A stretch of DNA of 33,005 bases. It comes from Candidatus Vogelbacteria bacterium RIFOXYD1_FULL_51_18 (GTDB taxonomy: Bacteria > Patescibacteriota > Minisyncoccia > Phycocordibacterales > UBA9988). Location: positions 1 to 33,005 of the forward strand of contig MHTL01000013.1 in assembly GCA_001823095.1 (NCBI GenBank), read 5' to 3'. The position numbers and the translations under genes are program-made. A model generated the notes under the pieces. It made no database searches. It worked only from the letters and a program-made list of their open reading frames with translations, and was not told the DNA's origin. Of this stretch, positions 26,445 through 28,779 are shown in pieces (position 1 is the stretch's first letter; each line of letters opens with the position of its first letter).

Positions 26445-28369
26445 CAGTCCCACTCTATCACATCCTCGGAGTCCATAGGTGAAAAAAGCTCTTCTTCAAT
26501 GAGGTCGTCGCTGATATCAAGGAGAAACTCGGAGGGAATATTGATTCTCCGCGAGCCATAAATGGTCCGCGTCTGCGCGTAGGAGAGGTAGAGTTTTTCT
26601 TTTGCGCGCGTGATGGCCACATAAAAGAGCCGCCGCTCTTCCTCATATTCTCGTTCCGCGGAAGCGGATGCGGATACTCTGGTGTGAGGGAAGAGCTCCT
26701 GCTCCAAACCGGTCACAAACACGTAGCCGAACTCAAGCCCCTTTGCCGCGTGGACCGTCATGAGCCGCACTCCTTCGTTCTCTGCCCGTTCCTCTTCCTG
26801 CGCCTCTTCTGCAGAGAGAAGCGCCGCGTCGGTGAGGAAAGATTCCAGCGCATCGCTCGGAAGGAGCGCATCGTAGCCGCGCGCAATACTCACCAGCTCT
26901 CGCAGGTTCTCAAGCCGCTCCACTCCCTCCTCTCCTCCCCCCTCAAGTTCCCGCTCCCAGCCGCTCTCGGTCAAGATGAATTTGAGCGTCTCCGAAAGAG
27001 GGCTTATCTGTAATCGTTCTTTAATAGCCGCAAGTAGAGAAAAAAAATTTTCCACACCGCGCGCCGCCGCGCGCGGGAGTGTATGGGATGCCCCCGAGAG
27101 TATCTTTGCCATGCTCGCCTTGCCCAGGCCCCTTCGTGGCGTGTTAATGATTCGCTTTATACTCTCTGTGTCATTGTGGTTGAGCGCCGCGCGCAGGTAC
27201 GCGAGCATGTCCTTTATCTCCTTGCGCTCAAAAAAGCGGATTCCAAAGACTTGGTAGGGCAAGCCTCTCGAGAGGAAGGCTTCTTCCATCGCGCGGGATT
27301 GGAAGTTGGCGCGGTAGAGCACGGCAATATCCCGCGGGAGCGCCTTCTTGCGCCGGATGAGCTCCCCGGCCTTCTCGGCAACTCCGCGCGCCTCGCCAGC
27401 TTCGTTAAGCGCCGTAATGAGTCCGATTTTTTCCCCTACCTTATTTTTGGTAAAGAGCGATTTGTCCCGCCTCTCGCGGTTCTTCTTAATAACCTCGTTT
27501 GCCGCTGCGATAATAGTCTGGGTTGAGCGATAGTTTTCCTCCAGCACCACTACCGTCGCTCCGGGGTAGTCGCTCTCAAAGTTGAGAATGTTTTTAAAAT
27601 CCGCGCCGCGCCAGCCGTAGATAGACTGGTCGGCATCTCCGACAACTGCCAGATTGCGGTATTTTTTTGCCAAAAGGAAGACAAGCTCATACTGGGCGGT
27701 GTTGGTGTCCTGGTACTCGTCCACGTGGATGTAGCGCCAGCGCTCCTGGTATTTGGCGAGGATATCGGGACGCTCCGCAAAGAGCGCTACCGTGCTCGCG
27801 ATAAGGTCGTCAAAGTCAAAGGAATGGGATTTTTTGACGAGCGCGCGGTAGCGCGACCACACGGCGGCAACCATGCGGCGAAAGGTGTCCTGCGCCCGTC
27901 CGGCAAAGATCTCCTGCGAAACGAGGTTATTCTTCTCGCGCGAAATGACCGCGAGAATTTTCCTCGGCTCCTGTTCTTTAAGTGAGATGCCGAGTTCTTC
28001 CATTGCTCTTTTAAGAAGCGCGAGCGAGTCCTCCTTGTCTAGAATGCTGAAGTGCCGAGGGTAGCCGAGCACAGCGGCATTCTCCCGCAGTATCCGTACA
28101 CAGAGTGAATGGAATGTGCTTATGAGGGGCTGTCTCTCTGTGTCATCCAGGCAGGTTCGCATGCGCTCTCGCATCTCCTGCGCCGCCTTATTGGTAAAGG
28201 TGACAGCAAGGATGTTCTCGTGAGCAACGCCGCGTTCAATGAGGTGGATAATGCGGTGTGTGAGCGTCTTGGTTTTTCCGGCCCCGGCCCCGGCAATAAT
28301 CAAGAGCGGCCCCTCGGTAATGGCGACTGCCTCTTTTTGTTTCTCGTTCAATTCTTCTCGTGCACACAT
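26444..28369 (-). CDS. UvrD/PcrA-family superfamily I DNA helicase
   Basis: A 3'-to-5' DNA helicase used in nucleotide excision repair, mismatch repair or replication restart. The 641-residue protein has the Q motif LNEKQKEAV, Walker A AGAGAGKTKTLTHRI, motif Ia AVTFTNKAAQEM, Walker B HVDEYQDTN, motif III GDADQSIYGWRGAD, motif IV ENYRS and motifs V-VI (RLMTVHAAKGLEFGYVFVTGLEQELFPH, RRLFYVAITRAKEKL). It is shorter than the ~720 residues of PcrA/UvrD and seems to lack most of the C-terminal Tudor-like tail, ending in an acidic segment (DLIEEELFSPMDSEDVIEWD). The ATG lies 9 bases from the divergent -10. Confidence 0.95.
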   Translation of the reverse strand: MCAREELNEKQKEAVAITEGPLLIIAGAGAGKTKTLTHRIIHLIERGVAHENILAVTFTNKAAQEMRERMRTCLDDTERQPLISTFHSLCVRILRENAAVLGYPRHFSILDKEDSLALLKRAMEELGISLKEQEPRKILAVISREKNNLVSQEIFAGRAQDTFRRMVAAVWSRYRALVKKSHSFDFDDLIASTVALFAERPDILAKYQERWRYIHVDEYQDTNTAQYELVFLLAKKYRNLAVVGDADQSIYGWRGADFKNILNFESDYPGATVVVLEENYRSTQTIIAAANEVIKKNRERRDKSLFTKNKVGEKIGLITALNEAGEARGVAEKAGELIRRKKALPRDIAVLYRANFQSRAMEEAFLSRGLPYQVFGIRFFERKEIKDMLAYLRAALNHNDTESIKRIINTPRRGLGKASMAKILSGASHTLPRAAARGVENFFSLLAAIKERLQISPLSETLKFILTESGWERELEGGGEEGVERLENLRELVSIARGYDALLPSDALESFLTDAALLSAEEAQEEERAENEGVRLMTVHAAKGLEFGYVFVTGLEQELFPHTRVSASASAEREYEEERRLFYVAITRAKEKLYLSYAQTRTIYGSRRINIPSEFLLDISDDLIEEELFSPMDSEDVIEWD

Positions 28370-28378
28370 AGAAGCTTC

Positions 28379-28388
28379 AGTATATACT
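28379..28388. promoter_or_regulatory. Symmetric bidirectional -10 element AGTATATACT
   Basis: AGTATATACT is its own reverse complement. Read on plus it gives TATACT (28383-28388) with a 7-base gap to the ATG at 28396. On minus it gives TATACT (28384-28379) with a 9-base gap to the uvrD ATG at 28369. A single short palindrome may thus serve both divergent genes, sharing two bases of the hexamer. Confidence 0.6.
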
Positions 28389-28395
28389 ACATAAT

Positions 28396-28779
28396 ATGCC
28401 AGAGTCCCTCTCTCCCGAATCGGTCCCCGCAGAGCTCTTGGAAATCTCCCGCGCCATTGAATCGCGCCGAGGCGCTTTGGAGAGTGAGCACGGCATCATA
28501 GAGGAGAAGCGCATTGTCCATCACGTGATCGGCGAGGAGCTCTTTGAGAAATCTACCTCTACTCTTGCCGTGCCGCCACCGGGGAGTCACTACCTTGATT
28601 CCCTGGACAATGAGTCTCTTACTGCGCTCAACAGTTATATTGCTCGCATTTCCGAGTTGGGGCTCAAAAAAACGCTTGTGCTCGTGCGGAAAGAGAACCC
28701 CTTCCTCATAGATGCCTTCCATGATGCGCTTACCGACAAGCTCTATGGTGAGCTGAAACAGCATGGTCTTATCAGCTAG
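28396..28779 (+). CDS. Small hypothetical protein upstream of the VirD4-like gene
   Basis: 127 residues, soluble and acidic: MPESLSPESVPAELLEISRAIESRRGALESEHGIIEEKR, then HHVIGEELF and DSLDNESLTALNSYIARISELGLKKTLVLVRKENPF. No family recognised. It overlaps the VirD4-like gene by 17 bases, so both are translated together; it may be a chaperone or adaptor for the coupling ATPase. Its ATG lies 7 bases from TATACT. Confidence 0.7.
   Translation: MPESLSPESVPAELLEISRAIESRRGALESEHGIIEEKRIVHHVIGEELFEKSTSTLAVPPPGSHYLDSLDNESLTALNSYIARISELGLKKTLVLVRKENPFLIDAFHDALTDKLYGELKQHGLIS

Follow-up and report, generated by a model that had tools for sequence, protein, structure and literature searches.

How are two divergent genes transcribed when only 26 bp separate their start codons, and can a single promoter element serve both? 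The question is raised by a locus in Candidatus Vogelbacteria bacterium RIFOXYD1_FULL_51_18 (Patescibacteria, Paceibacteria), found in a window of 33,005 nucleotides (contig MHTL01000013.1, positions 1 to 33,005), where a gene for a UvrD-type helicase and an operon that includes a VirD4-like ATPase are read away from a short palindrome (Table 1). An earlier note on this DNA had described a ten-base palindrome reading TATACT on both strands within a 26-base gap between divergent ATGs, and both descriptions are exact. The distances of 7 nt (plus strand) and 9 nt (minus strand) from each TATACT to its own ATG, which had been called suitable, indeed fall within the peak of 6-9 nt found for such hexamers in this genome. 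The proposal that one -10 element serves both uvrD and the VirD4-like operon is upheld in part: it is supported by the position of the palindrome, by the leaderless signal and by the spacing class (PMC12825309), with the correction that the first gene of the operon encodes a 127-aa protein and the ATPase comes second. We put the probability that the gap acts as a bidirectional, near-leaderless promoter with a symmetric -10 element at about 0.62.

Table 1. Positions of the predicted promoter elements, the flanking genes and the short divergent gaps used for comparison (G000, the genome of the window; L, individual loci).
Feature	Position	Strand	Remarks
AGTATATACT palindrome, 10 bp	28379-28388	both	predicted common -10 region, layout A-NNN-TA-NNN-T
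Divergent intergenic gap, 26 bp	28370-28395		between uvrD ATG (28369, -) and 127-aa gene ATG (28396, +)
-10 hexamer TATACT, plus operon	28383-28388	+	7 nt to ATG; without TGn
-10 hexamer TATACT, uvrD	28379-28384 (reads 28384-28379)	-	9 nt to ATG; without TGn
Weak -35 TGCACA, plus direction	28361-28366	+	spacer 16; within uvrD
UvrD/PcrA-type helicase, 641 aa	26444-28369	-	PF00580 8e-88, PF13361 9e-73
127-aa protein	28396-28779	+	first gene of plus operon; no Pfam/NCBIfam match
VirD4/TraD-like coupling ATPase, 789 aa	28763-31132	+	second gene of plus operon; PF02534 1e-5
Divergent gap with AGTATACT between start codons, 24 bp	L135:5541-5564 (G000:C6)
Divergent gap with AGTATACT between start codons, 26 bp	L139:11375-11400 (G000:C10)
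17-bp divergent gaps	L104:2984-3000 and L076:4282-4298		upstream of 127-aa/VirD4-like operon

The identity and the start codons of the flanking genes bear directly on the size of the gap. The best NCBIfam model for the helicase is PcrA (TIGR01073), with a score below the cut-off of the model, and alignment backs its start, the relatives having a GTG or ATG start codon at the corresponding residue. Homology supports the start of the 127-aa gene to within several residues; in most relatives (loci L032-L111) tblastn places a match to this protein before the ATPase gene, and a search of IMG/VR with the protein found no relative. The last 40 residues of this protein are the part matched most often among relatives. 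The ATPase gene overlaps the 127-aa gene by 17 nt. The match of its product to TrwB (1e9r/1gl6) spans approximately 44 residues, matches were found in all 60 relatives from the order that were searched, and the best named matches are mostly from Candidatus Vogelbacteria.

The two TATACT hexamers overlap by 2 bp on opposite strands and each matches the -10 consensus at five of six positions. As AGTATATACT occurs once in the whole 634-kb genome, near the chance expectation for any 10-mer, the word by itself is unremarkable and its significance lies in its position. Hexamers with at least 5/6 matches located 5-10 nt from both starts were obtained in 1.7% of shuffles of the 26-bp gap, and in 0.16% when a 10-bp palindrome was required as well; when every 26-mer of a 360-kb genome sample was put to the two-sided -10 test, 0.16% passed. 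The -35 matches are weak, and a TGn extension was looked for before both hexamers and is absent, with GTA in its place. A second palindrome of 8 bp, GAAGCTTC (28371-28378), adjoins the first and may be due to chance, as the sample contains six copies that lie mostly within genes.

To place the hexamers in their genomic context, we relied on this sample, which covers 57% of the genome and was read as stretches, with genes called by a simple gene finder that is blind to promoters. At a distance of 6-9 nt from the start codon, -10-like hexamers precede lead genes in 37 cases where the background is 4.8; TATACT is more frequent there than any other hexamer (17/61). Motifs resembling a Shine-Dalgarno sequence are rare, both before lead genes (10/90) and before inner genes (10/71). 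A -10 peak at 6-9 nt together with rare SD-like motifs is, at the level of sequence, the pattern of leaderless transcription, and it resembles that of bacteria of the leaderless type, among them Mycobacterium tuberculosis and Deinococcus deserti, in which the -10 element lies approximately 6-9 nt ahead of the start codon (cited in PMC9581028). The consensus of the signal is TGnTATACT/TATAAT and most of these promoters carry the TGn, in contrast to the site in the window. Hexamers of this type also stand exactly 6 nt before the start in 12 of 118 inner genes (less than 20 bp from the upstream gene on the same strand), which hints at possible leaderless promoters inside operons.

All other sets sampled from the order also show the leaderless -10 peak, with varying strength; little weight was given to the stretches of one genome (G181), which were mostly masked. 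The 8-mer AGTATACT, which is related to the palindrome, is enriched in the sample from the window's genome (12 copies versus 1.4 in shuffles, 11 of the 12 intergenic), and the whole genome contains 15 copies versus 4 of the reversed word. When AGTATACT followed by an ATG 4-12 nt downstream was counted in 98 relatives, most genomes showed no excess over a reversed-pattern control; an excess is seen in the window's genome (12 versus 1) and a few others. The TATACT form is thus a trait of some lineages, whereas the leaderless -10 peak as such is general.

Other short divergent gaps show a similar arrangement. The three shortest in the sampled 57% (24, 26 and 26 bp) all hold a symmetric -10, and one further gene pair overlaps. 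Apart from the gap in the window, both divergent gaps below 40 bp contain AGTATACT, flanked by zip-like and tsaD genes in one case and by corA-like and unknown genes in the other; these names are inferred from the N-termini, and the genes look unrelated. All sampled relatives across the order together have 20 divergent gaps of 12-30 bp; 12 of these show a two-sided -10 at leaderless distance, compared with 4.5 +/- 1.7 in shuffles (maximum 9 in 300). In two of the gaps of exactly 17 bp (L104 and L076, Table 1) the start codons are 18 bp apart and the hexamers overlap by 5 nt, each 6 nt from its start; 18 bp is also the commonest start-site spacing of known bidirectional promoters (PMC12825309). 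Part of the symmetry in short gaps is nevertheless a geometric by-product of fitting two leaderless promoters into a small space.

When comparing the locus with its relatives, the divergent order of uvrD, the 127-aa gene and the virD4-like ATPase gene is kept in nine checked loci of Candidatus Vogelbacteria and relatives (L113, L115, L117, L118, L119, L121, L124, L125 and L032), eight of which are assigned to one other family. Their gaps are longer, at approximately 45-99 bp, and the palindrome was found in none of the nine (0/9). Conservation of the palindrome with the gene pair, which the earlier note had offered as a check, therefore does not extend to family distance, at which gene order is kept and symmetry is not. 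In the four loci most like the window (L113, L115, L117 and L032), TATAGT stands 6 nt before a uvrD GTG at the residue that corresponds, in the alignment, to the ATG of the window; the other start has a perfect TATAAT 10-12 nt ahead of it. They thus share order, orientation and a -10 near both starts with the window, although the two -10 elements are separate, with 17-39 bp between the hexamers, and form no palindrome. In the remaining five loci, the -10 assignments are less clear. As nine loci with the same gene order lack it, the palindrome is at best lineage-specific, and the sequences suggest that two promoters probably existed before they were fused. Many further lineages have the 127-aa/VirD4-like operon opposite a gene other than uvrD, across gaps of 17-38 bp; in two scanned loci this partner is a PMT-type glycosyltransferase.

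E. coli and Salmonella are known to have bidirectional promoters in which the -10 elements are symmetric (PMC12825309; PMC10268837), so that a two-way promoter at this locus would be a further case of something already established in other bacteria. The most frequent distance between the start sites of such promoters is 18 bp, and spacings of 10 and 23 bp are common too (PMC12825309), within a range of 7-25 bp (PMC10268837). Like the promoters of this class (Warman, Grainger and colleagues), the site in the window has overlapping -10 elements common to both strands. A 7-bp rule predicts a start-site spacing of 23 bp for it, within the preferred set (18, 10 and 23), and the spacing becomes 27 if both starts are exactly at the ATGs. 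In contrast to the known class, the RNAs predicted here have almost no leader or none, the promoter core takes up the whole space from one start codon to the other, and the site is known from sequence.

Three other explanations need to be weighed. The palindrome could belong to a promoter that works in one direction, with a single TATACT in use and a chance palindrome, the other gene starting from a different site. The features that count against a bidirectional reading, namely the missing TGn, the weak -35 matches, the 9-nt minus-strand spacing at the long end of the range and the partly geometric symmetry, leave room for this, and -10 motifs are self-similar, a strong TATACT being near-palindromic by nature. 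We retain this reading as unlikely, yet worth keeping in view, because the hexamers lack both TGn and strong -35 elements. Against it, the gap offers only 26 bp, and no other hexamer with at least 5/6 matches is listed at a distance that would suit one gene or the other; in addition, the closest relatives give each gene its own -10 at a similar distance. Since the spacing, the leaderless signal of the genome, the short symmetric gaps and the fit to the 23-bp class all point the same way, a bidirectional near-leaderless promoter is the likely reading. It is far less probable that a dimeric regulator controls both genes with the palindrome as its operator, as the symmetry of the site, the location between divergent genes and the adjoining second palindrome might suggest. 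The 10-mer is unique in the genome and not found in the gaps of the relatives, and the related AGTATACT often precedes seemingly unrelated genes at -10 distance; we rejected the operator on these grounds.

The earlier note had also proposed that the overlap couples the repair helicase to a secretion ATPase, as RNA polymerase could bind in only one direction at a time. Such exclusive binding would set uvrD against the VirD4-like operon, expression of either lowering that of the other. The overlapping hexamers do exclude two simultaneous polymerases, and such steric exclusion is accepted for this class of promoters (PMC12825309). However, none of the five bidirectional promoters tested in E. coli had enough basal transcription for polymerases to compete; making one RNA therefore left the other unaffected, and interference arose only under strong activation of one side (PMC12825309). 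Without competition at basal activity, coupling of uvrD and the ATPase is not the default expectation. The relatives that have the uvrD/VirD4-like pair without the symmetry, and the lineages in which the operon has a different partner, also speak against it. We therefore regard coupling as improbable, and see no sign of a link between DNA repair and secretion through the palindrome.

Returning to the bidirectional promoter, RNA polymerase with the housekeeping sigma factor would bind the palindrome facing either way. From the TATACT on the plus strand, transcription of the 127-aa gene would begin at its ATG or one base earlier (approximately 28395/28396); from the TATACT on the minus strand, transcription of uvrD would begin 0-3 nt ahead of its ATG (approximately 28372 to 28369). 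With almost no leader or none on either message, a gap this short would suffice. In the lineage of the window, this arrangement probably arose when a longer gap with two separate leaderless promoters shrank.

Taken singly, neither bidirectional promoters nor leaderless mRNAs are new. In the literature searched we found no paper joining the two as at this site, nor one that deals with the promoters of this group of Patescibacteria or with leaderless transcription in it. More tentatively, in part of the Patescibacteria (Paceibacteria) divergent genes may often rely on a single symmetric -10 from which two leaderless mRNAs arise, with the allowed start-site spacings setting the distance between start codons (gaps of 17-26 bp, some of exactly 17 with starts 18 bp apart). 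If this is true, a symmetric -10 with two leaderless mRNAs would be a general device for the compaction of small genomes. If confirmed, the site in the window would show how the reduced genome of an ultra-small bacterium has packed two promoters into 26 bp, and the very short divergent gaps across the order would provide a testable rule for the annotation of gene starts in these genomes.
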